Below, piece by piece: positions 1 through 64,000 of a DNA stretch of 64,000 bases. How positions within the stretch are numbered: the stretch's first letter is position 1; each line of letters starts with the position of its first letter. Below the pieces are notes generated by a model, which did no database searches, was not told where the DNA came from, and saw only the letters and a program-made list of their open reading frames with translations. The stretch is from Chlorella sorokiniana. Taxonomy: Eukaryota; Chlorophyta; Trebouxiophyceae; Chlorellales; Chlorellaceae. The translations under genes were made by a program, and so were the position numbers. The stretch covers positions 124,001 to 188,000 of the forward strand of contig CP084612.1 of assembly GCA_025917655.1 (NCBI GenBank), given 5' to 3'.

Positions 1-2926
1 TGCACATGTGACGTGCAGCCTGCTGCAGTGCGTTGCCGACCCCGCCTGCACACTGCCGCCCATCAAAGCAGGCACCAATGAGAGTGCAGTCCAGACCAAT
101 GAGAGTGAAGCTAAGGCTGATCTAGTAACGTTTCCGTTGCCCAAGCGCTGCTGCTGCCTGTTGCGAAACTGCTGCTCTTTGGCTGCCAGCCTGCTGCGCA
201 CTACCTGCCTCTTCCGCACCTATCCGCCGACACCCTTCAACAGATATAACCCCCGCACACCCACCCATACACCACTCACCCACCCACCCCATACACACCT
301 CCACCATCGTCTGCATGTCCACCTCCACCGATGCGGCCTCGCGGCACACGTCCTCAATGTTGTGGGCCTCGTCAAAGATGAGCATGCAGCCCGACACGTC
401 TGCGGGGGCAGGGGTTGGAACAGGGGGGCAGAGGAGGGCTCTGTCTTGAAGGGGGAAGCAGCAGCGGGGTGAGGCGGGGCAGCGGCGGCTGGAAGCGGCG
501 CCGCGAGGCTGCCCGCCGCCCAGCACCCGCCAGCCAGCCTCAGCCGCCTTGCCCCAGCGTGGCAGCGCGTGTCCATGCCCGCAATCGCTAATTCTACTGC
601 CGTTCCCAGCCGCCCACCCGCAGCGCAACCGCTGCAGCCCCCTAAGCCTACAGCAGGCGGGGCAGGAGAGGCGCTATGCCGTGCCTGGCCAGCCCCGCAG
701 GCTCAAGCCCTCACCCACGGTCATGGCGCGGCGGATGACGGGGTCAATCAGGTAGGAGTAGGGCGCAAAGATGACCTCAGCCTCCTGCGGCGGCGGCCAG
801 GGTGGGCGGCAGCCACTTGGTAGGAGGGAACGCAGCTGAAGTAAGGGGCGGAGGATAGAGGGCCGAAGGCAAGGGCAGCCAGAAGCGCTGTCGCACAAGC
901 GGCCCAAATCAGCAGCGCTCATCGTTCGGCCTTCGAATACCTGCCTTCCTCCGCAGCAAACGCGACGCACGGCTCACAACTCAACTGCCCCCCCCGTCTA
1001 ACACACACACACGCCGCCAGCGCACCTCTGCCCATTTGCGTGCCGTGAAGTAGGGGCAGGCCTTGTGCGAGCGGCCAAACCCCTTCAAATCCTCGATGTC
1101 ATGCAGGCGGTACTGATACCCCGACCCGGAGAAGCTGTGCACGTTTTTGAAGTACTGACACTGCGGTTCAAGCGGCGGGGGAGGTGGGGGGGGCAGAGCC
1201 ACAGTTGGGGGCACCAGAAAGGCTGCAGCCCGCAACAGGCAGGGGCCCGTGGTTCCACTGAATAGCAGGCAGCTGGAGCAGCGAGCGGAACAGGAAGCTG
1301 GGCAGCACTGCTGGAGGCGTGACAAACAGGCAGCCCCCTGCAGCCCCCACCTGGCTCTCCTTCAGCAGCTCCTCACACGCCTCGTCAATGCTGGCCTGCT
1401 TGGTGGCGTGCATGTTGATGCAGTAGTGCTTGCGGGAGCCCTGCAGAGAAGCGGTGCACCCAGCATTGGGCAAGGCCTTGGCACCACCCTACATTGGCAC
1501 GCTGCATGGGAGAAGGCCAGGGTGCCCCCGCTCCGGATGCTGGCCAGCGGCAGCGCGGGCTGGGCGCCGCAGCCCGCCCCCTAGCAGGGCACCCTTTGCA
1601 GCACCCATCCCGCTGGCCCCACATGCAATGCATGCGCCCGGCCCTGCCCACACGACTGCGCGATGCAGCATAAGGCCACGCTGGTCAGCAGAGTGCGCAG
1701 CCCAAAGGTGCACTGGCTGATGCACCCACCAGCACCGCCATGCGCGGCTTGTACTCGCTCCGCTTCAGCTCCTTCACCACCTGGCAGAAACACACAACAG
1801 CCCATTGTTTTTGCATAAACTCAAGTCATGGATGGGGAGAGCACACACAAGAGGCAGCAGTCGGCAGGGCGCTGCATCGCAAGCCAGGCCTGGAGGTTGC
1901 CCCGCCCGCCGCTGCCGGCCAGCACCCAGCAAACGCCTCATACGGGCCTCCGCAGCGGCGTGCAGGGCCAGCGCGGGCACCCACCTGAGCAATCTGGGAG
2001 TGGGTGCGGGTTGCGTAGTAGATCTTCGGGGCCTTGCGGCGGGGCGGCGGCGCAGCGGCCTCCTGAGCGGCGGCATCCGGCAGGAAGCCGCCGTCGCCAG
2101 CAGCCGCTGCAGCCGCAGCGGCGACGGCGACAGCAGCCTCTGCCTCCGCCGCAAGCGCCTGTGTTGCAGTGGCAAAGGTGGCGGCGGCTGCCACGGCGGC
2201 GCCCACAGAGGGGGCGTGGGGGCAGCGCCAGGCTGCAGCAAGCAGGGAAGGCGGTGGTCGCAGCTGTTGCAACCAAGCAGACATTGCGTGTGAGGCCCTG
2301 GAAGCCATGCATGCATGACTAACTTCACTTCTACTTTCAGATGAAGTGCGGCGAAGGGCGAAGGGCGAAGGGCGAAGACGAAAGCCAGCGAAGGGATCAT
2401 GAGCTACCACCCACCTTGCCATCCAACCCTGGCGTGGGCCCTGGCTGCTCGCCGCCGCCGCCCAGCGCCTCGGCCGCCACGGCGGCCGTCGCCGCTGCCG
2501 TCGCCGCCGCCTTCTCTGCAGCCAAGCCTTCCTCGATGCGCTGTTTCTCTCGTGCCTGCCATGCCAGAGCTGAGCAGAGCAGGGACAGCGTCTTGCCAGA
2601 GCCTGAAGCGGGCGGGTGGAGCGGCCAAGGGGGATTGGAAGACGGTGGCAGGCAGGCAGTAAACGCTTCCGCGGCGAAGCCACCCTCGTTAGTCCACACA
2701 GTTGCTCTGCACGCCTCAGCGTATGCAGCATGCAAAGCAGGCAGCCCGGCACCTGTGTACACGCAGCACGCGCATGCCCCACTCCCCCTTCACCTGTGGG
2801 TGCCTCCAGCAGCGCATTGTGCCCGCCCTCCAGCGCAGCGATGACCTTGTTCATGAACGACAGCTGCACGCCGTACGCCTGGTGCGGGAAGTGCACCTGG
2901 CAGCCGCCGATGGTGTAGTTTGACAT
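1..2926 (-). CDS. FANCJ/BRIP1-like Fe-S DNA helicase, 5' part (3' end outside window)
   Basis: Superfamily 2 DEAD_2-type 5'-3' DNA helicase acting in the nucleus on interstrand-crosslink repair and G-quadruplex unwinding in known homologues. Predicted exons, in order: 2926-2794, 2602-2415, 2232-1985, 1780-1730, 1440-1351, 1160-1026, 784-715, 399-299; the rest lies beyond base 1. The N-terminus YTIGG...HFPHQAY followed by Walker A EAPTGSGKT matches BRIP1 better than RTEL1. Then come YYATRTHSQI (motif Ia), four cysteines in HYC, EACEEL, QCQYF and KACPYFTA that fit the Fe-S ligands, and DEAHNIED (motif II). The ATG at 2926 is immediately upstream of the conserved start. An Ala-rich linker in exon 3 breaks the reading phase, so one indel or a misplaced splice site is likely there. 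XPD is less likely because of the YTIGG start. Confidence 0.88.
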
Positions 2927-3357
2927 GGCTGCCGGCCCGTCGCCCTGCGCGGCTGGTATCGCCTGGCGGCAGCTGGCGCTGGCGGCAGGGAGGCGTGGTG
3001 CGGCTGCCCAGCCCCTGGGCCCCCAAGCGGCAGGTTAATGACTCCACAGATACTTCGGACCTATGCTTGGCGCATGTTGCGGCCGGCTGCAGCTCACACA
3101 CCAAGCTGATCGAAAGAGGGAGCGAGCAGGAGCATAGTGACGGCTGTCTGGTGCTGAGATGCTCCTCAAGCAATCGATTATTGCCAGGTAGGGCGCGCTC
3201 AGCCGGCGAGGAGTTGCTCCGCAAAATAAGCCTGCTGGGCGGCACAGCACGCAGTCGAGCGGGCAAAGATGGACCCTGATGCATCACCCGATCGCGTTAT
3301 CCGGTGGTTCACTGTCATTGAGACCTGCTGCCTTGTCTCAAACCCCTCTCGATAGCC
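2927..3357. promoter_or_regulatory. Divergent intergenic region, helicase / lumenal protein
   Basis: These 431 bp separate the start codons of two divergently transcribed genes and must hold both 5' UTRs and promoters. No TATA box or other motif could be assigned. Confidence 0.4.
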
Positions 3358-5184: not shown

Positions 5185-5349
5185 GCCACCCTGGCCACCC
5201 GCACACACCCTGGCCCCAGACCTGAGAAGATGCGCTGGAGATCCTGGCTGGTGCGGCTCCCTTCCCTTGCAAGCCACACCTGAGAAGACTGAGTGCCCCG
5301 CAAGCATGCCTCTGAATTTTGACAATGAACTCGCCTCTCCTTTCTCGCC

Positions 5350-5364
5350 TGTAACTTGCTTACA
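5350..5364. terminator. Back-to-back polyadenylation signals (TGTAA / TTACA)
   Basis: TGTAA at 5350-5354 reads on the plus strand 166 nt after the lumenal protein stop. TTACA at 5360-5364 is TGTAA on the minus strand, 208 nt after the esterase stop. TGTAA is the usual chlorophyte polyadenylation signal. Together they form a 15-nt imperfect palindrome serving two convergent genes. Confidence 0.65.
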
Positions 5365-8500: not shown

Positions 8501-9510
8501 TGCTTCACCCTGGCCAGCTGGTACCTGCTGCACGCCACACGCCCTGCACGCCTGTCAAATCCCCCCACCCCCACCCCCACCCCCACACACACACACCGCC
8601 ACACCTCGCCCCATTAGCCCCCACACACACACACCGCCACACCTCGCCCCATTAGCCCCCCCCACCCCCCCCACCCCCACCCCCACCCAACATACACACA
8701 CCAAAATGCCGCACCTGTGGCACCAGGCGCTCGGTGCAGGTGGCAAACGTGCCGGCGTTGGTGGCGGAGATGGCGCGGTTGGAGAAATTGTGGTCCCTGC
8801 TACGAGAGCACGGGCTGCTGGTGATGCGCTGCAGAACTGTTGTGATCACCTGACAGGCAATCCGGCAGCGCAGCAGCGCCCGTGAATGCGATGCAAAAGC
8901 AGCAAGCAGGCCCGCAAAGACAGGGAGCAGGGGGAGCCTCGCCTGTGGGGGAAGGTGGCGTTCAGGAACTGGAAGAAGCGGGCGGGGTAGCTGGTCGAGG
9001 TACGGTTGGAGGCGCCTGCGCCCCAGCTCACGCTACCCCCAGCGTCGCCGCCACAATAGGCTGCCCCGCCTGCAGCCGCGCCACCAGGCGCTCACGCGAG
9101 CGCCACTGCCGTAGAAGCCCATGCCGCGTTTGAGCTGGCGCTCACGCAGCACGGCGGGCCACGGCAGCGGCAGCGGCGGAGATGGCGGCGGCGGCGGCGG
9201 CGGCAAGCGCGGGGGCAGGTGTGCAGCGACTCTTGCTCGCAACAGGTTCAGGATCTGAGTATCTGCAGGTGCTTTTGCAGGGAGGAAGGCATGGGTTCCA
9301 GGGATGTTTCCACGTTTGTTTCTGCACATCTGGTTCTGCACATCTGCCTGCCAGCGGCAATGGCCGCCATAGCAGCGGCGACCGGGTCGTACCCTCTCGT
9401 GCTACACCCAGTCGGGCCCCGATCTCGCGGGGCGGGAATTTAAAGGTTACTAGGACGGCAAAGGCGCCAAACAGGAAGCCCGTCAGAAAAAATTGAACGA
9501 AATGCCTCAT
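5572..9510 (-). CDS. Membrane-anchored SGNH/GDSL-like esterase
   Basis: Predicted SGNH-fold hydrolase of a family common in green algae; the substrate is unknown. Exons: 9510-9408, 9262-8943, 8796-8715, 8438-8279, 8135-8066, 7916-7842, 7693-7586, 7368-7160, 6947-6816, 6551-6488, 6205-6091, 5778-5572, about 549 residues. The N-terminus has one hydrophobic segment (FVQFFLTGFLFGAFAVLV), so a signal anchor facing the secretory lumen is likely. Block I is GGSVSWGAG (nucleophile Ser), FTFNEH supplies a block-type Asn, and YYDVVHPAG holds the Asp-x-x-His pair. The C-terminal half has conserved WGWTAHR, GMGLALVECRSG and HPRCVLRVT. Five single-base losses (near 9098, 9038, 8375, 7653 and 6167) break the frame; adding one base at each makes all twelve exons phase-consistent. 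Three introns use GC-AG. The first in-frame ATG is at 9510. Confidence 0.8.
6046..6090. repeat. CCCA-rich simple repeat in esterase intron
   Basis: Runs of CCCA and CCCCACA on the plus strand. In the sense of the minus-strand gene this reads (GTGG)n immediately after the 5' splice site at 6090. Four or more GGG tracts could form a G-quadruplex in the pre-mRNA. Confidence 0.8.
8580..8655. repeat. Two-copy 38-bp tandem repeat in esterase intron 3
   Basis: A 38-bp unit made of a CA tract, CCGCCACACC, TCGCCCC and ATTAG occurs twice in direct tandem, followed by a C-rich CCCCACC tract. It lies in the intron between exons 8796-8715 and 8438-8279 and has no coding potential in the gene's frame. Confidence 0.85.
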
Positions 9511-13552: not shown

Positions 13553-16500
13553 ATGGCCCACCTCCAGCTGCTGCCAGTGGCGGCGCCAGCGCCACTCAGC
13601 AGCAATGCCCGCCCGCCTCGAGTCCGGCTTGCAATGTGAGGCTGCCTTTGACAGTGCAAACTGTAGCGCCAGGCGCCCGCACCATGACTTCTTGCAACTG
13701 CACTGACACGTATCTGTGGCTGCACGTCTGATTTCAGCTGTGATGGAGGCACCGCTCTGTGGACCGCCGATGGCCTGCTGCGGGTGGCACCCACGAGCAG
13801 TTGTGGCGGCGGCACCTTCAATGCAACGGCAGCAGTGTCAGACTATGCAGTCACACTCCTGAAGCCTGGCGGGTTGCAGGAACAGATGCGGGCGCCGTGG
13901 TCCGCGCTGTGTGCGCTGCCTGCCCTCCCTGGCTTGCTCCTTGCCCAGGAGGGCAGCTGCAAGCTGCTGTTCTGCCAGCACCCCAACAGCCTTGGGGCGG
14001 GAGAGGGGGCAGACATCTTTCTGATCGGGCGCCACGAGGGTAAGGTTGTCTCCGTGAGAGGGGGTGCCCACTGCCACAGCATGAAGCTCACACTCCCCTG
14101 CATCCCTGCCCCTCTCCAGCACCCATCACATCGGTCGCCGCCAGCCCCTGTGGCAGTCTGGCGCTGTCAGGAGACCTAGGCGGCGGCGTGGCCCTGTGGA
14201 GCCTGGCAGACGGCCGGCAGCTGTCGGCTGGGCAGGTGCCAGGCTCGGGGTCGCGTCTGTGTGCTGGCTGACCAAGCCCGGGGGCTGTGCAGGCTCCTTG
14301 GTAGCCACCGCCGTTCAAGGCAGCAGCGTGGTGCAGCTCTGGAGCGTCGCAGGCGGCCAGCTGCGGCTGGCGGGCGAGCTGGATGGAGGCAGCTGCAGGG
14401 CGGTCAGGTGCCTCTGCACAGCGGGCCCGCTGCTCGCTGTCGGCTGCGTGGATGGCAGCACCCTGCTGTGGCACGCGCATGGCGGCGGCTTTGAGCAGCA
14501 CGCGATGCTGCCCGGGCCCGCACAAGGGGCTGCAGTGGTGTCCCTGAGCTTCAGCCCGGACGGCTCGCTGCTCGCCGTCGCAACAGCATGCGCGGCAGGG
14601 GACAGCCCGGCTGTGGCTGTCTTCGCCAGCGCCACCGGGCTGGCCGTCTGCCAGCAGGAGCTGCAGCTGCCACCAGCCCTGTTGCTGTGGGCTGCAGGCA
14701 GCGAGCTGTGGGCGCTGCTGGAGGATGGGACGCTTGTGGCTCTGGGTGAGCCGCACTGTGAGCCAGGGCTGCCGCTGCAGTCGCGGCATAGAGCTCAGCA
14801 GCAGGCAGCGCTAAGCCTGCCCCCAAAACAGAAGAAGACGGTGCGCTTCTGCGCTGCCAGCCCAACAGATGGCAGAGTCGGGTTGCCACAGGTGCAAGCA
14901 GAAGTGGAACGGGCTCAGCCTCCTCACCCCACACTCCAGAAAGAGCATACCGGCACTGCAGTCAGCGCGACAACGGGACAGCGACAGCCCGGCCGGCGAG
15001 AGCTGCCGCCTCTGCCCTCCCACCCGCGGCTCCGCAGGCTGTCCGGCGCGATGCCGCTGGATGCCTTCAGCGCCCGGGACAACCCCTTGTACCGCAACAA
15101 GTCACCAGTGAAGCCGCGGCCCAGCGCAGCCCGCAGCGTCAGCAGTGCCCTGTGTGCACAGAACACGCCTGACGTGCCTGCCGGGCCCAACAGCAGGTGT
15201 GGCGGCGGGGGCTGCAGTGCGAGCCAGCGCCAGCCCCTCTACCCCATACTGGACCTTCGAGCATTACAAGGGCTACCCACCGTGCAGGCAGGCTCAAGCG
15301 GAGGCTTCCAGGCCTTGCCCGCTTATCCAACAGCCAGGGGCTTGCCACCGTCTGAATGTCTGACAGCCTCAGTGCCCGACAGGCAGCCGCCACAGGGCGC
15401 AGCCAAGGCAGCTGCAGCTGTCTCAGCCCCTGGGCCTGCTTTGACAGCCAGCAGCGTGCAGCCCGAGCCTCCTGTGGAAGCACACATAGAGCACGAGCCT
15501 CCTGTGGAATCAGCAGTCTGCATAGAGCACGAGCCTCTTGACGAAGCGTGCCCCCGCCAGCAGCTGCCGCCGGCCCCTTGTCAGCGCAAGCAGCGTGCAG
15601 ATCAGGAGGAGCAGCAGGCTCCTGGCAGGGTCAGCAAGCAGCGCTGCGACGCATGCCACGTGCTCGCGGCAGCCGCGGCGCGAGAGGAGCTGCGCGGGCA
15701 GGCCGGCCGGGCCCCTGCACTGCTGCTCCTGATCAGGACGGCAGCGACGACTGCAGCGCCTGCGGCAGCAGCAGCACAGACAGGCAGAGCTGCACAAGAC
15801 CATGTGAGCAGCCTGTGGTGCCTGAGGCTGTGAGCCATGATGCGGGTCCGCGCCTGGACAGCGCGGCAGCCCAGGGCAAGGGTCCAGGGCCAGGTACACA
15901 GCACCTGCCCGGCGCATCCAGCACCGCGCCCGAGCTCGGCAGCAGCGCTTTGCCCTGCTCAAGCGGCATGCTGTGCGGGCCAGCGCCACGGGCGAGGGAG
16001 GGCTCCCTGCCGGCAGCACTGGCGGCCATGGGCTGCCACGGACGGCCGGGTCTCTAAGCCTGCCCACCCTGCAGCAAGCAAGCAGCCTGAGCACCTCGGC
16101 TGCCAGCAGATGGCAGCTGAGGAAAGCGGGGGCAGACGCAGCGCAGCCGACGGCGCACCCCTCAGCCCAGAGGCAGCAGGTGCATCGCAGGAAAAAGCGG
16201 CGGCAGGCAGCCTGCCGCAGCAGCAGGGGCTGCAGCAGGGGCAGCAGGCGGGAGGTGGCCCGCTCGATGACGCAGCGGTGGGGCAGCAACTGGCTGCCCT
16301 GGTGCACCCTGGCCGCTACGCCATTGACAGCGACGCAGTGCTAAGCGACGGCGAAGGCGAGCCTGAGGCAGCGTCCTGCGCCGAGCCGGCAGCAGGTGAA
16401 GTTTCGTGGTGTGGGGGCATGCTCAGCGCCGAGCCAGATGACGAGGTGCAGGGCGGCAGGCCGCGCTGCCCGGCGGCGACGCCAGACGCATTCGAGATGC

Positions 16501-24200: not shown

Positions 24201-24619
24201 GGCCAGCGCGGCTCAGGCGCGGCTGCAGGCCAAGCAGCTCAAACCGCAGACGCCCGAGGCCCCCCATTCCCTCGGTCGAGAAGACGGCGCTGCTGCGCCA
24301 GCTCAGCACGGGTGGGTGGCTGCGCCGCCGCTGCTGCCGCCGCCTCTGCGTCTGCGTGCTGCAGGGAGGAAAGGGGCGGCTCCCAGGCAGGGCCCGTCTC
24401 GGTGGCCGCTGGGCAAGCAAGGCAGGCGGTCAGCGCCGCTGCTGCGCGGCCGGTGGTCGGGGTGGCAGAGGCCCCCATGGCTTGGAGTGTTCCTTTGCGC
24501 CTTTAACCCCGCGTGCCCCCAAACCCCCATTCCCACCCCCGCCCTGCCCCCTGCCCATAACAGGCAACATGCGCGTGATGGTGAACGCGGGAGCAGAGCC
24601 TGCACGTGCCGCCGTTTGA
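21276..24619 (+). CDS. Golgi nucleotide-sugar transporter (NST-KT/TPT family)
   Basis: Drug/metabolite-superfamily antiporter resembling plant UDP-rhamnose/UDP-galactose transporters, bringing nucleotide sugars into the Golgi for wall polysaccharide synthesis. Ten exons: 21276-21419, 21562-21649, 21936-22021, 22326-22446, 22685-22850, 23094-23175, 23507-23604, 23867-23981, 24192-24311, 24564-24619. Predicted membrane helices occur throughout. Family blocks include TSVFIVFVNKLLMK, SLMLNTVSFYQIAKLLIIP, VSSGLQQIFVRTMQQKHKLS, ELLSNTAPAQ, VNVSQFMCLGRFSAVSFQVLGH and KFGGMALAVSGMVWY. Lost G at 22725-22729, lost G at 23902-23906 and an extra C at 24260-24265 are needed to join the frames; all exon phases then agree. 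I chose ATG 21276 over upstream non-ATG starts. Exact substrate cannot be assigned. Confidence 0.88.
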
Positions 24620-25543
24620 TGCACCGCCGCCGCTCGACTCAGCGCCGGATGAGGCCGTCGCCCCGCCTGCAAGCAGCCCAACCCAACCCGCCACTCCAGC
24701 GCCACCCCTTCCCCAACCCAAACTCACGGATTGACGCGCAGTGCCAGGCGTAGTGGCGCGCCAACGGCGCCGCTGCCAGCACGCGACAGGCACAGCGCAC
24801 GCCTTGTCCTTGCTTCCCTTGCTGCTCATTTTGCACTTGTTACCGCTTGCTGCCTGTCCTTACTCGTGCCATACCCTTCTGTCTCGACCCCTGGGCGGTT
24901 CGTGCCGTTCAAACATGCCATCGGGCGGAGCAGCCGCCCGGCCCTGCTGCCCATTTTGTTTGGCATGCTCCGGCCTGCAGCCACCTGAATTGCTCGTATC
25001 CCTCGGCGCTTGCAGCAACTTGCGCTGCTCTGTAGCAGGCGAGGCACAGGGAAGCAGCAGGGCTTGCGCCGGCGGCGGCTGCAGCCCAGCGTGCAGAGTG
25101 GAGTGCAGTTGGTGGGTGGCAGGCACAGCGTGGGACACAGCAAGTTTACAAGGCGCGGTGGCTCTGGTTGTAGGGGCACCCATGCGTGCCAGCAAGGTGG
25201 ATGGGTGAGGGGCAGGCCGCACCACACGACGCGAGGGGCCTGGCGGGTCGATCGTTGGCGGGTGGAAAGGGTCAGTGCTTGCAGGCAAACCGGAGAGAGA
25301 GGCGGGGCTGCGGGGAATGAGGCCGCAGCCCGCAACAACGGAAGGGGGAAAACCGGGCAAGGAGATACATGGGCTATCTATCTATGGGCGCGGCATGGGC
25401 TGGAGCCCCCGCACAGCGCGGGGCAGGGGCGCTCGACAGAGCTGCAACTGTGGGGTGGCGAGGGGCAGGGCGGCGGGTGGGCCGGCCAGCCGAGTGCCGG
25501 TGGGGGGAAAGGCGGGGTTCACAGCAAGCAGAAGCCGTCCCGG
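24620..25543. other. Convergent intergenic region
   Basis: 924 bp between the transporter stop and the stop of the unknown minus-strand gene. TTACA at 25146-25150 is a likely polyadenylation signal for the latter. No gene supported. Confidence 0.45.
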
Positions 25544-35560: not shown

Positions 35561-35633
35561 CGCTGGCAGGCTGCAGCACAGCACAGCAGCGGGGTGCGCT
35601 CCTTCTGCCGCCGCTCAGCCGCTGTGCGGGGGC

Positions 35634-45888: not shown

Positions 45889-48800
45889 ATGGCTGGCGGC
45901 CGCGGCAGCGCCAGCGGTAACGGCGGCAGCAGCGGCGGCAGCCGCCCGCCGTCTGCCGCCAGCTCGCGCGTTCCCTCGCCCTTTGGGCCCCCGCTGCACC
46001 GCCCGAGGGCGGCCAGCAGAGGCAGGGCAGCGTGGGGCCTCCCCTGCGCGCGGCCGCCGCAGGCTGGCCGGCAGCGAGGCGCCGCCGTTGGCCCGCCCAG
46101 ACGCGCAGCGCGACCCCCAGGCTGCCCTGCTGCCTGGGAGCCCCCTCGAGAGCGGCGTCCTGGGAGGCGGCAGCAGCGGCGGCCCGCTGGCGGGGATTCC
46201 CCAGCAGACAGCCCGCGCCAGGGCAGGGCCCCCTCCTGGCGCTCCTGCCTCAACCAGGTAACTGAGCGGGCGCCGCCTGGCACCTCTGAATGCTAGGCGT
46301 CGCTTCTCACGCTGCTGCCTGCCCGCCCGCACACCTGCCTGCCCGGCTGGCTTCGGTGCATGTCCTTTATACTTTCCTCAGCCTGCGTGCCTCCTGCTCT
46401 CCCACACCTCCCCCAGCCTTCCGGCTACCTGCCCCACCCCTCCGCCTTCCGGTTTGCCGCTGCAGGAGCCGCTGCTGCTGGCCACCCTGGCCGGGGTGCT
46501 GCTGGGCATCGCCGCCGGCGCCGCGCTGCGCCCGCGCACCTGTCCCCCGCCGCCATCGCCCTCATCGGCTTCCCGGGGAGCTCATGCTGCGGCTGCTGAA
46601 GATGCTGGTGCTGCCGCTGGTGGCTGCCAGCATGGTGAGCGGCGTGTGCAGCCTGCGGCAGGCGGACGACGGCGGCGGCGGCGGCGTGCGACGCCTCGCG
46701 CGCCTCACCGCCGCGTTTTATGTCGGTGGGTGCAGCGCGTGCTTCAAAAGGGGCGTGTTTGTGCGGGAGGGGCGTGTTTGTGCGGTGCACGTCGCGCAGG
46801 GAGCGGCCGCTGAACGACGGCAGCCCAGGAGCCAGCCCAACGCTAAAGCAGCCTCGCTGCCTGCCCCCAGCCGCCACTCACGGGGAGCCCGCTTGGCTGC
46901 CGCCGCCGCCGCTCCCCTGCGCTGTGCAGCCAGCACCGCCGTTGCCATCCTGGTGGGCATAGCGCTCGTCGTGATCATCCACCCGGGCAGGGCGCCCCCT
47001 TTGACGCGATCGCGTCCGCAGCGGGCGGCTGCGCGGCGGAGGGGGAGCGGCAGGTGCAGAAGGAGGCGGAGGGAGCGCGGGAGCGGCATGGCGGCACCGC
47101 CGAGGCGCTCATGGGCGTTGCGCGGCAGGTGGGCCGGGTGGGGATGCGGTTGGATGGGGGAGGGCTCAGCGAGTGTCGGTGTGCGGATGGCGGGGGATGT
47201 GAGGGGGGGAGGAGCGAGGGAGGCACCCGTGCCGCCGTGGTGCCCCTCCCTGCTTCTCTTCCCTTGAATCAACGCACCTGAACTGACTCAACCGCCCACC
47301 CCCCCACCCCCTTGTTCTTTCGGTCCATCTCCCCCACCACCCACACACCCACACACAACACACACACGCCCACACACAACGCCAACCTAGGTGGTCCCCG
47401 ACAACGTGGCTGCGGCGGCGGTGGACATGAACGTGCTGGGCCTCATCACCTTCTCCCTCATGCTGGGCCTGGCCCTCAGCTCGCTCGGTGCGTGCGCGGG
47501 AGCAGGGCGCGGCAGGCTCGCCCATCTGCCTGTGGCGGCACAGCATTCTGTGGCTGTCGTCACCCTCCCCCGGAAACACTGACATGAAGACTTGTGCTCA
47601 CTGGCACAGTGATTCCTGTCGCTGGCCCACTCCCCCACATTCCATGCCGCCCGCGTGCGCCCCCGCCCCCTTCCCTTTCCCCGGCCCCCCTTTCCCACCT
47701 TTCGCCCCCACACACCTTTCACACACACACACTCACACACCACACTCCCAAAACGCCCTCTCCCCCTTCCGCAGGCCCCGCCGCCGACGGCGTGATTGCG
47801 GGCGTGTCTGTGCTGAATGCGGCGGTGCAGCGCATGGTGGCGGCGGCGCTCTGGGTCTCCCCGTGGGCATCGGCTGCCTCATCGCCGCCAGCATGCTGCG
47901 TGCCTGCGACCTGCTGGGTGCGCGGGGAGGGGAGGCTTCTGGCCGGCAACATTGCTGCAAAAGTGGGGGAGGGTGTTCCATGTGGATGAGGTTGATGGGC
48001 TTGGGCTGCTGGGTGGTGGTGCAAGGACGGACAAGCTGCTGTATGTGATGGCGGGAATGGCGTAATGTTCATGGCTCAGGAGGGCAGCAAGTGGCAGGGG
48101 TGGGCAGTGGGGATGGTCGGTGGGCCTTGCTGAAACGCTGGCCAGCGCTCCCTCCCCCATCCACCCACCCCCTCCGCAGGCACGTTGGCGGCGCTGGGGC
48201 TCTGGGTGGCCACCGTCCTGGCCGGCCTCGCCCTCTTTGCTTGCGTGCTGCTGCCCGGCGCCTTCTGGGCGCTGACGGGGCGGTCGCCCGCCGCCACCGC
48301 GCGCGCCTTTGCCCAGCCGCTGCTCATGGCTTTTGGCACAAGCACCAGCGCGGCCGCGCTGCCCCTCGCCATGCAGGCAAGCCATTGCCCGAGGGGGGCC
48401 TCCGCCAGGGCTTGCGCTGCGGAGGAGCTGCCTCTGACTTGAGCTCGCCGTTTGCGCCCGCATGTGTGCCGCTCCGCCGTCGCCCATCCTGCCGCACAAC
48501 CCGCGTTGGGGATCAGACCTTCCGCACCCCTCCCTCGTCCCTTTCACGCCCTCGCCTCCCCTCCTTCCATGCCGCCCTGTGACACCTCTCCCAAGCCGCT
48601 CTGCCCCGCAGGCCGCCAAGGAGCTGGGGTGCGAGGGCGGTACCGTCGACTTTTTCCTGCCCCTCGGTACCGCGGTGAACATGAACGGCACCGCGCTGTA
48701 CGAGGCCACCACCGCCATCTTCATCGCCCAGGTGGCCCTGCTGGCCCTGCTCGCCTCCTCGTCCTACTTTGATGCTTCGCCAGTTGCACGCCCACTCATG

Positions 48801-50001
48801 CCTCAGCCCCCAGTCTCCACGCTGCCCCGCAAACATGCCTCGCTGCTGCTGCAACAGCCGCCGCGGCTGCTGCTGTGACGGGCTGGCAGCTGCGGTTCTG
48901 CTGCTGGGGTCCCCGGCATTGTTGTGCTTTTGGCCTCGGGCCAGCGGGCATCCAGGTTGCACACCCCTCCCTTCTCTGGTTGACCCGCATCCCTTTGTGG
49001 TTGACAGTCTCCTGCCAGCAGCATGGCATCCAGGAGCGCGCCCGCCCCCGCAACCCCGCTGCCGCAGGCCCACGGCGTGGCGCTGGCCCCCGCCGAGCTG
49101 CTCGTTGTGGCGGCGACCGCCAGCCTGGCGGCGGTGGGCGCCCCGCCATCCCCTCGGCCGGCCTCGTCACCATGCTGGTGGTGCTGCAGGCGGTGCAGCT
49201 GGAGCAGTACGCGGCAGGTGGGCGGTACAGGAACAGCAGTACCGCCAGGACCCCGCGCTGTGCACGGCCGGCAGGAGCCGTGCGCAGCGAGAGCGCCGGG
49301 CTGCTTGGTCTGGAGTCGGCTGCTGGGTGGGCTGCGTCTCCCCGTCGCAGCCTGCCTGGCAGCCGCTGGCAGCCTGGGGCCCCTGCAAGCCCACACCAGG
49401 ACCTTCCCCTGCCACCCGCATTCCCGCTTTGCATCCTGTCCCTGCTCTGCAGACCTGGCCATCATCCTTGCCATCGACTGGCTCCTGGACCGGGTGCGGG
49501 GAGAGGATCGCATCACTGGTTGCTGTGTTAATGATGTGTTTCAGAAGAAGACGGTTCAGGAGGAACAGCAAGCGCTGCCCCGAGCCACATCCTTGTGCCC
49601 CGCCGGCTGTGCCCCACTGCCGTCTGGCCGTCTGGCACCCTATGCCTGCCTGGCTGCTGACCTCCTTTCCATGCCTGCGCGCCGCCGCAGGTTCGCACAA
49701 TGGTCAACCTGCTGAGCGACGCCTTGGGTCTGGTACTGGTGAGCGGCGGGTGGGTGTCAATAGAGCGGCGGCGGCGCCGCGGGGCCCAAGCGCTCTGCAG
49801 CAACACGTTGCAGCTGCAGCTGCTGCTGCCGCCATTGTCGTCGCTGCGTGAATCGCGGCTTGTTGTTCCTCTCTGCCGAGCCCTGCAGGTGGATCACTTC
49901 ATGCAGCGGCGGCCACGCAGCGGGGCGGCGGGCTGCACGGCGGCAAGCAGATTCCCTACATCCAGTTGGAAAGCATGGGGCAGCAAGCTGGAGATGTGTA
50001 A
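45889..50001 (+). CDS. SLC1/DAACS-type dicarboxylate or amino-acid symporter
   Basis: Cation-coupled membrane transporter of the glutamate/aspartate/dicarboxylate family. Eleven exons: 45889-46257, 46466-46725, 46930-47128, 47391-47487, 47775-47917, 48180-48376, 48612-48731, 49068-49217, 49453-49493, 49691-49738, 49889-50001; about 580 residues with a long Arg/Pro/Gly-rich cytosolic N-terminus. Family motifs: IGFPGELMLRLLKMLVLPLV, NVLGLITFSLMLGLALSSLG, MAFGTSTSAAALPLAMQ (serine-rich hairpin HP1), FFLPLGTAVNMNGTALYE (TM7 NMDGT-like motif), IPSAGLVTMLVVLQAV (HP2) and AIDWLLDRVRTMVNLLSDALG (TM8). At least six single-base losses (about 46530, 46575-46578, 46990, 47859-47862, 49141-49144, about 49,910). 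Intron 6 has a GC donor (AG|GCAAG). Substrate not assignable. Confidence 0.88.
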
Positions 50002-50809
50002 CTTTTGCGGCGTGCTCATCCCTATTCTTTACCATGTCTGCACACAGCGACTTACAGAGGGCTGCCGCGTGGCGCTAGGCTGTGCAAAGGGATTTTGTGC
50101 GGCGCCAAAAGGGCTGGGAAGGGCGGACAGCGCAAAAGGCTGATGGCAGGGGGGGGGGGGGGCGTATAACAAGCGCTGAATAAGGTGCGCAGGGAAGGCA
50201 CAAGTACGGGAGGTGCAAATATGGAAAGTTTGCGCGGACACACACATCGCTGCTATTCGGGGGCACGACGGGAAATAATGGCACACAGACATGGAAAGCA
50301 TAGGGTGCGGTAAGGGGAGGGCAGGAGGCACAGCGAGCGCTCAAAGCAACTCAACACAAGGGGAAGAGGCACACAGGGGCAGGGATTGCAAGGGTTAGCG
50401 GCTAGGATGGCATTCTTATTCTCATGAAATCGGGGCAGACGGCAAAAGCAGGGTGGGGGGTTCGGGGGGAGCAGCCGCTTCGCAGGAGCCTCGCCGCTAT
50501 CGGTGGGAGGCGGAAGCGCGGGGCCAAAACTCGGGTGGGAGAGGGGGCGGCGGCAGCGGCAGGGGCCAAAACTGGGGGCGGCGCGATGGCAGGCACGCGC
50601 CGCAGGCAGCCTGCCCTGCCACCGCCCGGACTGATTCTCTCGTCTCTTTGCCTCTCTGTGCGAGGCGAATGGCGGGACTGGGGATGTGTGTGGCGGGGGC
50701 CATTCGTTCAAGCGACCTCAGCGAGTGAGGGGTTGGGGTGGAAGGAGGGCCGCTAAAAGATGGCTCCCTTCCCGCCTCCAACGCCCCTTGAACAAGGGCA
50801 AAAACCTCT
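50002..50809. other. Convergent intergenic region
   Basis: 808 bp between the symporter and BTB stop codons. Contains a G13-like homopolymer near 50,150 and a minus-strand TGTAA (TTACA at 50050-50054). No gene supported. Confidence 0.4.
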
Positions 50810-52605
50810 CTACACCGCCTCGGCGAGGGGTGAGCCGGGCTCGCTGTCCAGCCTCCAAATGGCCGGCAGAGCGTCGCCCAGGCTGTCCTCGGCAGGCACG
50901 TGAGCGGCGGGGTCCTCGTCGGCCTTGCGCAGCGCGGCCAGCAGCGCCGCCATGACTGCCAGCTGGGACTTGGGGGTCAGGGCCTGCGGCGGTCAGGTGC
51001 GGAGGGGAGGGACAGTTCAGAGCAGGAACGACGGTGGGTGATCCGCCGCGCTGTGTGGAGCTGGCACCCACTCTGGGAGCAGCTGGCCTGGGGGCCGAGC
51101 TACACGGCGACAGCCTCCGGCATGCTCCCAGCGTCAATGACGCCTGCAGCCCCTGCTTTCCCATTAGCGCCCACACACCTTGAGCAGCGTCACGTCGTGC
51201 ACGGCGGCCTGGGAGGCGTCAGCGCCGGGGCCAGAGACTTGCTGGAGGACACCTTGCCGATGGAGGCGGCCTGCGCTCAGTGGATGAAGGGCAGGCGGGT
51301 TGGCGGCAGCGACGGAAGATGCGCGCTTGGCAGCCGGCAAAAGGCGGCCCAGGCCCAACCTGAACTGTTGGCATACCCAGCAGCATTCCTCTGCCGCGCG
51401 CGCACACACAGACACACACACCACTGGCCCTGGACCCGCGGCCAGCATAAGACAAACACGGTGTGGCATGAGAACAGGCAGGGCTCACCCGCAGCTTGCC
51501 GCGCAGGTCTTGGCTGGACACGGTGCGCGGGGTGCAGCCCGCGTCGCGGGCGCGCGCGCCAGCAGCAGTGCGACCTCCCGCACGCACTTGGCCCACAGGC
51601 GGTCCAGGCCACAGTCCTCCGCCACTGCGGCCCAGTCGATGAGGCGGTGCAGGGTGGCCTGGTGGGTGCTCACTGCAGGCGAGGGTGGGGCGAGCGGGTG
51701 TGTGGGTGTTGGTAAGGGTATGTGTGTGTGGGGTGGGGTTGGGGTGTGTGTGGGGGGGGGGGGGGGGGCGGTGAGGTGGCCAGCGCTGGCGCTGAACAGG
51801 GGCAGCGCCAGCCGGCAGGGGGTGCGCCAGCAGCGCGAACGCAGCTAGCGCCACGGCCGATTGATAATAAAGCTTTCAAAGCAGGGGGAAGCGCGGGGGC
51901 TGCCTCTACCCACCGGCTTCATCCATGCGAGCCTCCAGCCGCCCCAGCAGCACCGGCATGTCCAGCTGGTTGGCCAGGCGCGCGGCCGCCGAGATGGTCT
52001 TGGCGGCGCCCGGCAGGTCGAGGCGCAGGGCGGCCAGCTGGTCGGGCCAGTAGGCGAAGCGCAGGAAGTGGGCAACGCGCTTGAGGGTGAACCCAGCCAG
52101 CGACTGCGACTCTCGGGCCAGCACGATGGAATCGCTCATCACCACCTGCAATATAGTGAATATAATGGAGGATCAGTAGAGTGGAGGAAAGCGGGAGGGC
52201 GTGACAATATGTGTGAGCGTAAGGGGCAGGAGGTTGGGAGGCGCCGCCGCGAGAGGAGCTGGCCAGCGTGGGGCGCAGCGCCTCAGCGCGCCGCGCCGTG
52301 CCGCCACCCCCTCCAACCACACACGCGCGCATGCACGCACCTGTAGCTGGGTGGAGTGGTCGAGGAGGTGGGCGTTCGAGGTGGACCGGGGGCGGGGCGG
52401 CAGCCTGCCGCCTGCCACTCCTCGAGCACGTCGGTCAGCACGCGCGACTGGGGCGCCAGCACGGCGCTGTGCACGGGCAGCGAGTGCCCCTCGACCATGA
52501 ACTCCCAGTCGGCGCCCCCGCGCCGTCGGGGCCGAGGAAGAACTGCCAGGCGTCGTCGTCGCTGTAGGCCGAGAAGGCCGGCAAATTCTTAGGGGCGACA
52601 ACCAT
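50810..52605 (-). CDS. BTB/POZ-domain protein
   Basis: Likely a substrate adaptor of CUL3 ubiquitin ligase, by family. Five exons: 52605-52341, 52145-51914, 51672-51489, 51270-51179, 50983-50810. The BTB fold starts with DWEFMVEGHSLPVHSAVLAPQSRVLTDVL (read in two pieces around the first indel), continues with LAGFTLKRVAHFLRFAYWP and ends near LANQLDMPVLLGRLEARM, followed by a BACK-like helical part, HQATLHRLIDWAAVAEDCGLDRLWAKC. The C-terminus is acidic. Lost bases at 52515-52519, near 52390, near 51555 and at 51227-51230 account for four frame breaks; with them all five exons are phase-consistent. No MATH, Kelch or NPH3 domain is present. Confidence 0.8.
51719..51770. repeat. GT/G-rich simple repeat in BTB intron
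   Basis: TGTGTGTG followed by GGGGTTGGGG and a run of about 14 G. In the minus-strand gene it reads as C/CA-rich sequence inside the intron between exons 51914 and 51672. Confidence 0.8.
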
Positions 52606-54456: not shown

Positions 54457-54498
54457 GCCGCGTCGCAAGCAGCGGCGCGGCGGCCGTTGGGGCAGGCT

Positions 54499-56403: not shown

Positions 56404-56948
56404 CCCATTGATTTTCAGCCCTTGTTTGACATATCGAACCAATCGAGGGCTGACGAACTATCGCGGAAATGCGCGTGCTGAGCCTGCCGCCACCGGCCCG
56501 TTTCCGCCATCGGCCGCGTTGCCGCCATCCAACACATGTTTCATGCCAGGCAGGCAGAGATGGGCAGCTTAAGGTTGGAAGAGTCAGCAGGAGACATCTC
56601 CACAAACCACATGTCAGCCTTGGTGGTGGTCTGCATCACAATAGCTGGCAAACAGAACGGCATGCAGCGGCTGACGGCATGGTCGGCCAAACGCTCTGCG
56701 GCAGCCAATCAAATGAGCGCCCCACTTTTGCTGAATGTGAGCAGCGTATGCATGGTCTGGCCTGTGCAGCACGTCAGATGCCAATCCTGGAGTCCAATGC
56801 ATTTGCGCATTCAGCCGCTCCCATGTCCCGCCTCGCAGTGCCGCCGACCAAAGTCGCCCACGGTCACAAGGGGCTTGGCGTGATGCGCTAGCATATCAAC
56901 AGCATTTGAACGTCCCCCAGTTGCCCATAACACACGCCATCCATCGAA
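56404..56948. promoter_or_regulatory. Divergent intergenic region, methylase / TcdA
   Basis: 545 bp between divergent start codons of two RNA-modification genes. No motif assigned. Confidence 0.4.
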
Positions 56949-59900
56949 ATGGACTCGAGGGCTGGACATGCAGCCGCAGCATTTGCCGCAGGGGCAGCGC
57001 TGGGAGCGACGGCGCTCTATTTGTACACACGATACGATCGTTCACAGCAGACGGCCGCCGCCCCCGCCGCCGGACCGCAGCAGCAACCTGCCGCCGCTGC
57101 TGCCGCCGCTGCACCGGTCAACGGCTGCGCGGCTTCGCTCAGCGACTTTGAACAGGACGAGGTGCTGGTGGAGCAGCTGACGCGCAACGCGCAGTTCTTT
57201 GGGCTGGAGGCGCAGAAGAAGATCGGCGGCAGCTTTGTTGTGGTGGTTGGCCTCGGGGTGAGGTGGCCTCGGCGCCTCGGCTGCCCCGCTTTGCATCCTG
57301 CCCGCCGCACGCTGCTGGCCCCACACCCTGGGTGCCTTTGCACAGCCCTGTTTGCCGCGTCGGCATGCCACCGCCATTGCTTGTTGCCGTGCCCTTCCTG
57401 TGCCCGTGCTGGCAGACAGTGAAGGAGTGGCTGCCCGTCCTACAGCCCCCCACCCCCTGCCGACACACCCCACGCGCCTTCCTTCCCTGGACAGGGCGTG
57501 GGCTCGCACGCAGCCCACCTGCTGCTGCGCTCGGGCGTGGGCCGTCTCCGCCTGATCGACTTTGACCAGGTGGGTGCTGCCTGCTGGGTGGCCCTGGCTG
57601 TGACCTGGCTGGGTGCTGCCTGCTCGCTGGCCCCGGCTTTGACCTGGCTGGGTGCTGCCTGCTGGCTGGCCCTGGCTGTGACCGGGCAGGTGCCGAAGCG
57701 CGGGCGTCGGCCCCTTGCTGGACTACACACAGCCATGCTGCTGCTTCCTGCCTTGTCTTTTCAGCCCGCTGCCTTCATTTCCTGTCAGGCCGCCCGCCTG
57801 CTGCCCGCCCCTGCTTCTCGTTGCTGCATGACACCGCCTCTCGCCCGCCGACTGCCGCAGCCTCCTCAGCCTCCCCCTCGCACACACTGACGCTGGCGCT
57901 GCCGCTGCTGCCGCTGCGCTGCCGCAGGTCACCCTGTCGTCGCTGAACCGTCACTGCCTGGCCACGCGGGCCGATGTGGGCCTGCCCAAGGCCACCGTGC
58001 TGGCCCGCCACTTCCAAGGCGCGCCCACCCCGCGTTCGCCAGCCTGCCTGCCGCGCCTGCATCGCGCCGCCTGCCCCAGCCCTATGGGTGCCACGCTCGG
58101 CGCCGCCCTTTCTCGGGCGCTGCTTGCCTTACCGCCGCCACCCCTGCCAGGGTCCCGCCAGGGTCTCGTGCAGCTGTCTCGTGCATTCCTTCAAACTTCG
58201 ACTGCACCCAGCCTGCCCTGCCTCCTGCTCCTCTCGTCCTTCCTCCATGGCCTCTGCTGCAGACATCCTGCCAGAGGCGCGTGTGGAGCCGGTGGTGGCG
58301 ATGTACACGCCAGAAGCCGAGGAGGCGCTGCTGGCGGGGCAGCCCGACTACGTCATTGACGCCATCGACAACATCGACACCAAGGTGGGGGCTGCCGGGG
58401 TGTCTGCTGGAGTGTTTGCTCGTTGCAGCGCTGGTGGCTGCGGATGAGCGTGGCAAACTGCCGGAAGGGTCCCTGCTGGGCTGAGCGCCAGCGCCGCCCG
58501 TCATTCATTTGGTACCCGTTGCGGCGCCAAGCGCTGCTGGTGCGGTCGACGCCGCCAGCGCCGCCCACACCCAGCCCCATCCTCCCGCCTCGCCCCGACC
58601 GTGCGCGCAGGTGGCGCTGCTTGCGGCCTGCAAGGCGCGGGGCTGCCGGTGCTGTGCAGCGCGGGGGCGGGCGCCAAGGCTGACCCCACCCGCCTGCGGC
58701 TGGTTGACGTTGCCGAGGCGGCGGCCGACCCGCTGGCGCGGGCGGTTCGACACCGGTGAGCCTGGCGGGCGGGTGGTGATTGCTTACTGAAGCATATAGA
58801 ATAGATTGCGGTGGGGCTAAGGGGAGGAGGGGACGTGCAGGCGAAGGGAAGGCTGGATGGGTGGTGAGGGAGGCCTGCCCCAGCCCAACCAGCAGCACAG
58901 GCAGCCCCAGTCGTCCGCCACGCCCGCTGCTGCATGCCCGTTCTTGCGCTGGCCGCCACCTCACCATCGACTGCGCGCCCCCACCCACCACCACCACCAC
59001 CATCCATTGCGCCGCCCCCCCCCCCCCCTCTCCCACCACCACCACCACCGCCTCACCTTCAATTGCCCCCCCCTCCCCCACCACCCACCACCGCTGCGCA
59101 GGCTGCGCCGCGACCACGGCATCTCCAGCGGCCTGCCCGTGCTGCTGTCCAGCGAGCGGCCGCGCTGCGGGCTGGTGTACGGCGGGGAGGAGGGGCAGGA
59201 CATGACGGAGTACCAGGTGGGGGTGCATGTGTGGGTGTGTGTGTGGGTGTGTGTGGGTAGATGGGTGTGTGTGGGTATGGGTGGGTGTGTGGGTGCGTGT
59301 GTGTGTGTGTGTGTGTGTGTGGGTGTGTGGTGTGAGTGTGTGTGGGTGGGTGTGTGGGTGTGGGTGTGTGTGTGTGGGTGGGTGGGTGTGTGGTGTGAGT
59401 GTGTGTGGGTGGGTGTGTGGGTGTGGGTGTGTGTGTGTGGGTGTGTGGGTGTGGGTGTGGGTGGGTGGGTGTGTGGGTGTGGAAGGGGGTGTGAAAGGGG
59501 GCCAGACGGGTAGCATTGTGGGTGCTGTGGTTGTGCCAGCTTAGAGATCTGCTTGCCGCCCGGCAGCCGCCCGCCTGCACGTGCCCCTCGTTTTCCGGCC
59601 ATGCTGCCGCCGTGCGTGGTGCTTCAGGCAGGTGCATTGCGTGCCTGGTTCCTCGGGGCCTGCGCGCGCATCCGTCCTGCTTGAAAGGCTTGTTCACCGC
59701 AACCCCAACTCAAACAGGGCCAACTCAAGCAGGGCATCTGCCCCCACCCCGCCTGCTGCCGCAGGTGGTGCCCAACTTCCGCATCGGCACCATCCCAGTG
59801 CTGGGCACCACCCCGCTGCCTTTGGCATGGCGGCGGCGGCCCACGTGCTGTGCCAGCTGGCGGGGCAGCCCTTCACGCCGGAGGTGCACTTCCGAGTGCA

Positions 59901-61554
59901 GGTGGGGGCCCGGCCGCAACCGCGCACCCTGGGGGGGCGGGGTGGAGATGGGGGCCCGGCTGCAACCGCGCACCCACAGCGGGGGGGGCGGGTCTTGGCT
60001 GATGGGGCTGCGGCGCACGGTGTGCATGCGGCGAGCATGCATGTGGGGGTGGGTTGTGTGGATTGATGTGTTTTGTTATGGTGTGTGTGGGGGGAGGGCG
60101 GGTGACTGGCTCCTTTTACCCCGCCGCTCAGACTCCTTGCCAGCCCACACGCCAGCTTGTGCTCTGGCCTCCCGTTCCTTCTGCTCCCTCTGCAAACACA
60201 CCCTCTCCTTGGATCAAGCCCTGAAAGAACCCCCACCCCATTCACCCCCACACCCCACACACGCCGCCGCCGCAGCCAAAGCAGTATCAGGGCATCCACG
60301 CCGCGCTGTACGAGCGGGAGGAGCTGCGGTACGGCTGCGCCGACGGCGTCGGGGTGGACGCGGAGGTGGGTGCAGCTGGCTGGTGTGTTTCGGAGGGTTG
60401 CGGGGGCGGGCAGGTGCTTGCGATTCGTCATTAATGGGCTCATGGGCTCATGGGCTCATGGGGACCACAGCAGGCGGGGCAGGGACGGCAGGCGTCCTGC
60501 AGGTGCTCGCCCCCGCTGCACCGCCATCAATGCCCGTAACTTGGCACCCGCTCACCCGCTGTCACTTTTGCATGCGCCAACTGTGCTCACCGATCGCGCC
60601 GACGCAGTCCTACATATGTTCATCACCCAACAAAGCTCTCACTTTAACACCCCCAACACACATTACTTTACCCCCCAAGCACCACACACACACACAACCG
60701 CCCCAAGCAGGAGGTGGAGGCGCTGGTGAAGGACGTGTGGCGGGGGCACAGCGCGGGCGCCGCCCCCGGCAACGACAAGGGCGTGACGCGCTCGGTGGGG
60801 CACCTCGCCCTTACGCGCTGGGTGAGGGGGCGGGTGGGAGGGCCGTGCATGATGCAGTTGGGGGCGTGTCTGTGCCTCTGTGTGTGTGTGAATGGGTGAG
60901 GGGGCATGCCTGCGTGTGTAAACGGGTGAAAGGCTGAGTGGAACATGTCTGTGCGTGTGCATGGGTGTGCGGGTGAGTGGAGCATGAGGGGAACCCTTAC
61001 GGCAGGAGAGGGCTGCAGCAGCACCACACTCCTTGCGCGTGTCGCCCGCCTGTGGGGGCGCCTTCCCCGGATTCTCTCACGCGCCCCTGCGCATTAGCCC
61101 AGTGTCCGACACAAGACAATGCTCACGCCCGCGCAGGACCCCTCCCAGCCCGCCACCGTCGACAACCTGGTGCTGCTGACGCACGGCGAGGCAGACGCGC
61201 ACGACGCGCTGGGCAGCCTGGAGCGGCTGCGGCAGCGGGTGCGTCGCCGGGGCCAAGCTGCTTTGCGGGGCGGTAGCACCTTGAGGTCTGCCGCCGCAGC
61301 CAATCGCTGGGCGCTGGGTAGCCCGTGTGAGGAGCTGCGGCGGCTTGCCGGTGTCCCAACCCCATCCCCCTTGTCGCCTCCTCCTCAGCCATGTCTCTGT
61401 CTGCCTGTGAGTGTTCACGCTGACACCTGCAGAAGCACCCTGAAGCCCCCCCGCCCCCGCCCCCCCTTCCTTCCCCATACAGGAGCCCGAGTTCTGCCTC
61501 CATGTGGAGTCTGTGCTGGCGCGGGCACGCCGCGACTTCATGTGGCGCTGCTAG
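56949..61554 (+). CDS. tRNA threonylcarbamoyladenosine dehydratase (TcdA/Tcd1-like)
   Basis: E1-like ATP-dependent enzyme that cyclises t6A at position 37 of ANN-decoding tRNAs to ct6A; the yeast homologues are mitochondrial outer-membrane proteins. Eleven exons: 56949-57257, 57495-57569, 57928-58018, 58263-58384, 58611-58755, 59102-59216, 59765-59901, 60276-60365, 60711-60821, 61137-61238, 61483-61554; about 456 residues. A hydrophobic N-terminal segment (AAAAFAAGAALGATALYLY) suggests a membrane anchor. Core: VVVVGLGGVGSHAAHLLLRSG (nucleotide loop, read to G-V-G-S-H), IDFDQVTLSSLNRH, DAIDNIDTK, LCSAGAGAKADPTRL (TcdA Cys region), HGISSGLPVLLSSE and PNFRIGTIPVLGTTP. The C-terminal extension VKDVWRGHS is eukaryote-type. 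Lost bases at 58639-58642 and 59811-59814; intron 3 appears to be GC-AG. TGTAA at 61920-61924. Confidence 0.92.
59217..59500. repeat. GT-rich minisatellite in TcdA intron 6
   Basis: About 280 bp of GTGTGTGGG-type units on the sense strand, beginning right at the 5' splice site (59217). A longer unit around GTGGTGTGAGTGTGTG is present twice (about 59,329 and 59,391), showing recent tandem duplication of roughly 62 bp. Confidence 0.9.
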
Positions 61555-62403: not shown

Positions 62404-63922
62404 ATGCTGCTGCTGCACTCCTTGTGTGCCTCCACTATGGCTCTGGTATTTCTGGTGGCTCGTTCCAAAGCTTTGGCGGATGAGGAGGCTGCAACCGCTG
62501 CCTGCGCCACCTCCTCGCTGCACCGCCGCCGCCGCCGCCCGCTGCGGCCGGGCGAGCACCCCACCATGCCCGCGGCGCCGCCGGCCCGGTCCCCGCCGTC
62601 GATCCCCGCCTGCAGGTGTTGGCTGGACTGGTGGCTGTGCCGGTGCAGGTGAGGCTACAGAAGGGGGTGGGGGCCCACAGCCAGTGGCCGCCTGTCCCGC
62701 CTGCCCACATGTCCACTTGCCACCTGGCACAGCCGCACCTCCTCTGGGTGCCACGGCCATCCCTTCGCCCTTTGAGCGCCATGTAGATCGACAAAAGGCA
62801 GCTGAACTGTCCCAGCCGGGCATGCCTTTCACATGCACGCACTCACACACATCCCACCCCTTCCCCTCCCCCTGCCGCCCGCAAACCCCTCGCCCCAAAA
62901 GCAACATCTCATCCCCAACCCACACACCCACCCACTTCATCCCAGGTGCTCGCAACGCTGCGCACGCCCATGGGCGACCGTGTCCAGGACCCGGGCGGCC
63001 TCGCCTCCATGGCCTCCCCCACCTCATCATCCTCCTGCTGGTGGTTGCGCTGCCCGCAGCCGCGCCGCGCTTGTACTCCAAGCACGCCAGCGTGCTGCGG
63101 GCCGCCACCCGCGCCGCCTTCTTCTCGCTGGGCACAATGCGGGACCCAGAGGACGTGCAGTCGGTGCTGCGGGTGAGAGCCGCGGTGGTGTGTATGGGGG
63201 TGGAAGGCATGCTGGCGATGCGTGGCTGCTTGTGGATTAGTGTGTGTGAGTCGAGGTTGTTGGAGAGAGCAGGAGCGGAGGGAGCTCGTGTCAGGTAGTG
63301 CAAAGCAGGATCGGACCGCCGCTCTGCATGTGGCATGCTGAGGCGCTCACACCGCCACACCACCCGGGCCGCCGTCGCCCTCGACCCCTGGAAACCCGTC
63401 CATCCAGCCGCGGTGCCTTCCCGTCTCTCTGTGCAGGGCCAGCCCTCTTCGCGGCCGCTGGGCGCATGGGCCGACCTCTTTGTGCTCACCCTGGGGGTGC
63501 GGGGGCTGGCGCTGCTGCTGGGGCCCCTCATCTGCCCGCTGCCGCTGCTGCCGCACCTGGTGCTGGCGGGCTATGCTGTGCAGGTGGGCGCGTGAGGGTG
63601 TGGCTGTGCTGGTGCGGGCGGTTGCGTGCCTGGCCTTGAGCGTAACCGAAGGAGCGACAGCGGGTGCATTTGGGGGTGCTACCTGTGGGTCAGGGGAGCA
63701 GCGCGGTGCCCGCAGCGGTAAGCAACGAGGGAGACCAGCGCCAGCGCCAAACCCCCTGCCAGCGCCCCACCTTCAAGTTCAACGCCGCCCCCCATTCCCC
63801 TCTGCCGCCCCGCGCAGCGCTGCCGCACGACGGCCGAGATGTGCGGGCTGCCCATGCTGGCGCACCCCGTGTGGCGCCGCCGCATAGCCTGGATGCACCG
63901 CGTGGCGGAGACGGTGCGTTGA
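62404..63922 (+). CDS. Uncharacterised membrane protein
   Basis: Not recognised. Four exons, 62404-62648, 62946-63172, 63437-63583 and 63818-63922, are phase-consistent if one base is restored near 62,590 and one near 63,015, giving about 241 residues. Hydrophobic stretches: MLLLHSLCASTMALVFLV at the start, HLIILLLVVALPAAAP, FVLTLGVRGLALLLGP and CPLPLLPHLVLAGYAV, so two to four membrane segments. Conserved-looking hydrophilic parts are LRTPMGDRVQDPGG, SLGTMRDPEDVQSVLR and CGLPMLAHPVWRRRI. The frame closes with TGA at 63920-63922, but ACG|GTGCGT at the same place is also a good splice donor, so the gene may continue past the window. Confidence 0.5.
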
Positions 63923-64000
63923 GGCGGAAGAGGGTGTGGGAAAGGGGCACGGAAGCAGGGGGTCACCCATCGGCGGGATGGAAAGCTGTGGGGGCGGGTG

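Follow-up and report, generated by a model that had tools for sequence, protein, structure and literature searches.

Frame breaks in a 64-kb nuclear window of a Chlorella sorokiniana assembly: very probable consensus errors at G/C runs

The DNA analysed here is a stretch of 64,000 nucleotides of nuclear DNA from Chlorella sorokiniana (assembly GCA_025917655.1, contig CP084612.1, designated C10; C10:124001-188000; hereafter, the window), in which reading frames are repeatedly broken inside exons. These frame breaks are, with high confidence, consensus errors of the nuclear assembly at runs of G or C, and the alga itself most likely carries the affected genes unbroken. The fault belongs to the nuclear assembly, as far as sampled, and is not special to the window. 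A consensus-error cause predicts breaks elsewhere in the genome, breaks at homopolymers, breaks at conserved loci and distorted run lengths in non-coding DNA, and all four were found; a preliminary description of the window, made from its letters alone, had proposed consensus error and not independent pseudogenes, and this proposal is supported by the same four observations.

The genome (38.8 Mb in 15 contigs, 67% GC) is intron-rich, with short exons and introns of about 200 bases (median among model introns, 203); the GC content along the window is 64-71%, and codon use in the genome has 91% GC at third positions (GC3). Codon use and gene content point to a green alga of Chlorella type, and chlorophyll a/b-binding gene pieces together with psaA and psaB on contig C15 mark the genome as that of a photosynthetic eukaryote. 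Frame changes were called with a two-strand codon hidden Markov model (HMM) containing introns and a frameshift transition and receiving no homology input. Training began with HSP70 and TCP1 exons and went on with the DNA of the window, of five 10-kb stretches and of 24 gene loci; the loci of chlorophyll a/b-binding (LHC) genes, pieces of which gave 41 matches in the genome, were kept out of training. The frameshift prior was set at 1e-4 (strict) or 1e-3 (loose), and 1e-5 was also run. A break call requires coding-like codon use on either side, and sites such as 58639 and 14247, where the DNA was not labelled as coding, are missed by the model.

At the strict setting, 15 calls were obtained in 11.6 coding kb of the window (1.30/kb), 11 of the missing-base type and 4 of the extra-base type; the loose setting gave 28 calls (21 missing, 7 extra) and the prior of 1e-5 gave 7 (5 missing, 2 extra). 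Strict calls were also found in the five 10-kb stretches on other contigs (16 calls in 14.1 kb, 1.14/kb), in the HSP70 and TCP1 loci (23 calls in 24.4 kb, 0.94/kb) and in the LHC loci (7 calls in 10.9 kb, 0.64/kb). The 61 calls in these 60.9 kb of algal coding DNA comprised 48 of the missing type and 13 of the extra type (p = 8e-6 against 1:1). Error-free simulated genes gave 0 strict calls across 45.9 kb of true coding sequence. Three bacterial plasmids of 61-70% GC, used as a clean control, gave 25 calls in 98.6 kb when introns were allowed (13 missing, 12 extra) and 36 calls in 98.9 kb when introns were nearly forbidden (22 missing, 14 extra), corresponding to a false-call rate of 0.25-0.36/kb. 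The rate in the alga is thus about three to four times that of the control, and the missing-to-extra ratio is 3.7:1 versus 1.1:1 to 1.6:1. Judged from the plasmid rates, background may account for one quarter to one third of the algal calls, and in the window for some 3-4 strict or 6-8 loose calls. The preliminary description had counted about 44 indels and breaks in 17 of 21 genes; neither figure was reproduced by the HMM, which placed at least one loose call in 12 of its 18 gene units in the window. Its estimate that three quarters of the breaks lack one base is borne out, the ratio in the window being roughly 3:1.

The missing-type calls are enriched at short G/C runs. The posterior mass of the 48 calls was enriched 5.3-fold at G/C runs of 4 and 3.8-fold at runs of 5, compared with 2.2-fold and 1.5-fold, respectively, for simulated random deletions, 57 of 60 of which were recovered. 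A G/C run of at least 5 lay within the 90% position interval of 14 of the 48 real calls versus 4 of the 57 simulated ones (Fisher p = 0.004).

The lengths of G/C runs themselves are distorted. In the window, the fractions of G/C runs that continue to the next length were.30,.30,.34 and.39, then.17 at the step from 5 to 6, and then.44; 357 runs reach at least 5 and 61 reach at least 6, while about 139 would be expected from the continuation rate at the step from 4 to 5. The same notch was seen in non-coding DNA from all sampled parts (150.6 kb), where the fractions were.287,.297,.320,.363,.179 (5 to 6) and.383, with only 120 of 671 G/C runs continuing at the step from 5 to 6 (binomial p about 1e-25). 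A dip followed by recovery is impossible for a mixture of simple run processes and can be produced by shortening of longer runs to 5. Non-coding nuclear A/T runs showed a weak notch (14/94, p = 0.04). A notch at 5 in non-coding DNA can serve as a cheap check for this fault that needs neither reads nor homologs.

Frame changes that leave no room for an intron were found in conserved genes. Pieces of homology in two frames overlapped without a gap in one HSP70 gene (C3) and in two PP2C genes (C1 and C5); the PP2C pair makes up 2 of the 40 contiguous junctions among TPT, PP2C, LHC, SDF and window protein tyrosine phosphatase (PTP) matches, and the remaining contiguous junctions were all intron-sized. 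The test took in the 4 of 7 PTP matches that lie in the window and left tubulin matches out, and its sensitivity is low because exons are short. In the window, a frame change of this kind occurs at 46575, in an SLC1/EAAT-like transporter gene: the nine residues to the left of the run score 19 in the upstream frame versus 7 in the downstream frame (BLOSUM62, against an EAAT chain), and 0 of 20,000 random window positions reached 19. The best solved-structure matches of this gene were animal EAAT/ASCT chains, and in a search of the genome for the PF00375 family it was the only match (4 exon pieces, 3 candidates scored). In one of the TCP1 loci (L041, C2:3520463-3520846), the TCP1 match runs through an intron-looking stretch free of in-frame stops. 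The chloroplast genes psaA and psaB, carried on contig C15 of the same assembly, are intact, with 711 of 711 profile positions each; they are a soft control, their loci being AT-rich with few long G/C runs.

The source of the errors would most likely be noisy, nanopore-like long reads for which polishing had little effect in the GC-rich nuclear DNA. At true G/C runs of about 5 bases or more, the consensus would tend to lack at least one base; the loss of one base would look like a missing base and the loss of two like an extra base, which would give the roughly 3:1 ratio of missing to extra calls. We infer on this basis that runs are longer in the living genome, that the sequencing relied on long reads of such a platform, and that calls of the extra class represent two missing bases. 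Such an artefact has published precedent. For Chlorella variabilis, Minei et al. 2018 (PMC6154909) give a core-gene recovery of 0-10.9% for long-read-only assemblies, where short-read assemblies, hybrid assemblies and the Sanger reference reach 82.9-88.5%, and describe starts and stops wrongly introduced in the long-read-only (MinION) sequence. The present case resembles that one in that the gene models of a Chlorella genome are broken; there the fault appeared as core-gene recovery near zero without short reads, whereas here it is known from frame breaks and the run spectrum. According to PMC8486125, nanopore homopolymers are well read up to 5 bases (4 in high-GC bacteria), with G/C worst and lengths slightly underestimated; the pattern here is similar, runs being fine to 4-5, longer ones probably too short and G/C most affected, although in that study reads were measured and here an assembly, in which chloroplast A/T runs near psaA and psaB are not shortened. 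Gene-fragmenting indel errors in long-read assemblies are reportedly also treated in the Kastor (PMC12007338) and Homopolish (PMC8011154) papers, where frame-breaking indels likewise remained after consensus, in small or microbial genomes.

Several observations weigh against consensus error as the cause. Direct homology proof is sparse, with 3 no-gap junctions from the HSP70, TCP1, TPT, PP2C, LHC, SDF and PTP models together, fewer than the HMM rate would suggest. When the 23 calls in the HSP70 and TCP1 loci were compared with continuous Pfam matches, 2 fell inside a match and are contradicted by it, 6 were at an edge and 15 lay beyond any match. About half of the missing-type mass (26 of 48) is at positions that touch no G/C run of at least 3, which is due in part to the fuzziness of the positions (median interval, 12.5 bases) and in part, no doubt, to background calls or errors of another kind. 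The exon-internal breaks at G/C runs claimed in the preliminary description are present and enriched at runs of 4-5; its placing of most indels in runs of 3-6 is not confirmed, about 45% of the mass being at runs of at least 3. The simulation was idealised, and under the loose prior its error-free genes gave 5 calls, all of the extra type. The bacterial control DNA also dips at the step from 5 to 6, more mildly (.205 to.114), and some of the notch seen in coding sequence can therefore be natural, perhaps owing to codon constraint; for this reason the drop at runs of 6 alone was discarded as decisive evidence and the non-coding subset was relied on, which is free of codon constraint and hence of this problem. 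Finally, chloroplast A/T runs in two overlapping 5-kb loci near psaA and psaB were not shortened at 5, so that either the fault does not cap runs of every base at 5, or correction worked better in the plastid.

Some of these points would also be expected if many calls were modelling errors, the model taking introns or exon ends for frame changes in a genome so rich in introns. The false calls in bacterial DNA, the contradicted calls and the mostly intron-sized homology junctions agree with this explanation. It would account for some calls, but neither for the whole of them, given the excess of the rate over the control, the bias toward missing bases and the enrichment at runs, nor for the non-coding notch; moreover, the interiors of Pfam matches cover 11.7 of the 24.4 coding kb in the HSP70 and TCP1 loci, and random false calls would land inside them more often than the two observed. 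We regard it as improbable. Another reading takes the breaks for real mutations and the whole window for a cluster of pseudogenes in decay. It would fit the share of the window's model genes with frame changes at the loose setting, and is rated as very improbable: comparable rates occur in the other 10-kb stretches and in the HSP70, chaperonin and light-harvesting loci, so that breaks are not restricted to dispensable genes as expected of independent pseudogenes; the calls need coding-like codon use on both flanks; and decay leaves the run-length notch in introns without explanation. Still harder to credit is that G/C runs are truly contracted in many nuclear genes and that programmed frameshifting or RNA editing on a wide scale restores the frame at such runs. 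Nothing specific speaks for it, although no search for a shared slippery motif was made; against it stand a call rate near one per coding kb across many genes and a notch that is present in non-coding DNA too. Consensus error being preferred, annotation of this assembly is expected to yield truncated proteins, spurious short introns and genes wrongly scored as pseudogenes or as lost, and polishing should come before any claim of frameshifts, G-run motifs or pseudogenes in the genome. The finding is a data-quality warning and not biology.

The features of the window on which these results bear are collected in Table 1, including seven sites listed in the preliminary description as examples of indels. 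One of the seven (22725) received a strict call and three (22725, 46575 and 59811) a loose call. The gene containing 22725, which is putatively transporter-like, gave no match to PF03151, nor was one found elsewhere in the window. Two of the sites lie in the gene for tRNA threonylcarbamoyladenosine dehydratase (TcdA/TCD1). At 58639, a TcdA alignment begins immediately behind the run and the previous exon stops ten residues earlier in the TcdA chain; between the two, a ten-residue piece in another frame was seen by eye. At 59811, the left side matches the TCD1 chain in both frames (scores of 26 and 20), which leaves homology undecided. A motif, presumably of SGNH-hydrolase type, spans 9036-9040 if the frame changes there, and the pieces flanking 14247-14250 are presumably WD-repeat-like; these motifs are what speaks for a break at the two sites.

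Table 1. Genes and sites in the window (listed, site named in the preliminary description; loose and strict, HMM frameshift prior of 1e-3 and 1e-4)
Feature	Position	Strand	Evidence
Listed site	9036..9040	-	No Pfam hit there, no HMM call
Listed site between pieces in two frames	14247..14250	+	Weak WD40-type hits only in gene; no HMM call
Transporter-like gene	21276..24985	+	Loose HMM calls at 22728, 23905, 24262
G run of 5, frame change inside one exon (listed)	22725..22729	+	Strict HMM call
Protein tyrosine phosphatase gene (PF00102)	33010..35560	-	4 loose HMM calls
ATG101 gene	35637..37386	-	Two matched exon pieces, intron-sized gap between; no HMM frame-change call
Listed site near A20/AN1 zinc-finger gene	38499..38503	+	Ambiguous, one frame open across
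SLC1/EAAT-like transporter gene (PF00375)	46290..49528	+	5 loose HMM calls, all missing type, one at 46574
G run, frame change within FPGEL motif of SLC1/EAAT-like transporter (listed)	46575..46578	+	Loose HMM call
Gene unit with three missing-type calls	50055..52605	-	HMM calls at 51221, 51553, 52518
TcdA/TCD1 gene	56778..61551	+	Exon pieces in three frames
G run just before TcdA alignment start, GAGAKADPTRL region (listed)	58639..58642	+	One-sided alignment; no HMM call
C run at VLGTxPxxFG region of TcdA (listed)	59811..59814	+	Loose HMM call at 59819

Among the genes that the preliminary description had modelled, ATG101 was recovered as a gene, although its unit does not appear as broken to the HMM. 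No PP2C gene showed up in the window, where PF00481 had 0 matches at E<=0.1, compared with 59 in the genome. PGP synthase and esterase gave no Pfam hit in the scans of window frame translations, which covered chosen stretches and strands and yielded few hits because exons are short.

Further observations concern other parts of the window. On the minus strand, a gene at 54499-56261 consists of two overlapping open frames with an Ala/Gly-rich stretch between them; it carries the motifs LDPFCG and DLPYG, which are presumably methyltransferase-like, and one more frame change is likely here, although it received no label from the codon model. Opposite this reading frame, a tRNA-Gln was called by ARAGORN at 55969-56060 (+), possibly falsely. 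A long GT/CA-rich repeat at 58353-59540 reads on the minus strand as an open frame of Thr and His codons. An ankyrin-repeat protein gene lies at 53306-54388 (-), an FHA domain piece (PF00498) at 20445-20624 (+) and a fasciclin domain piece (PF02469) at 29201-31200 (-).

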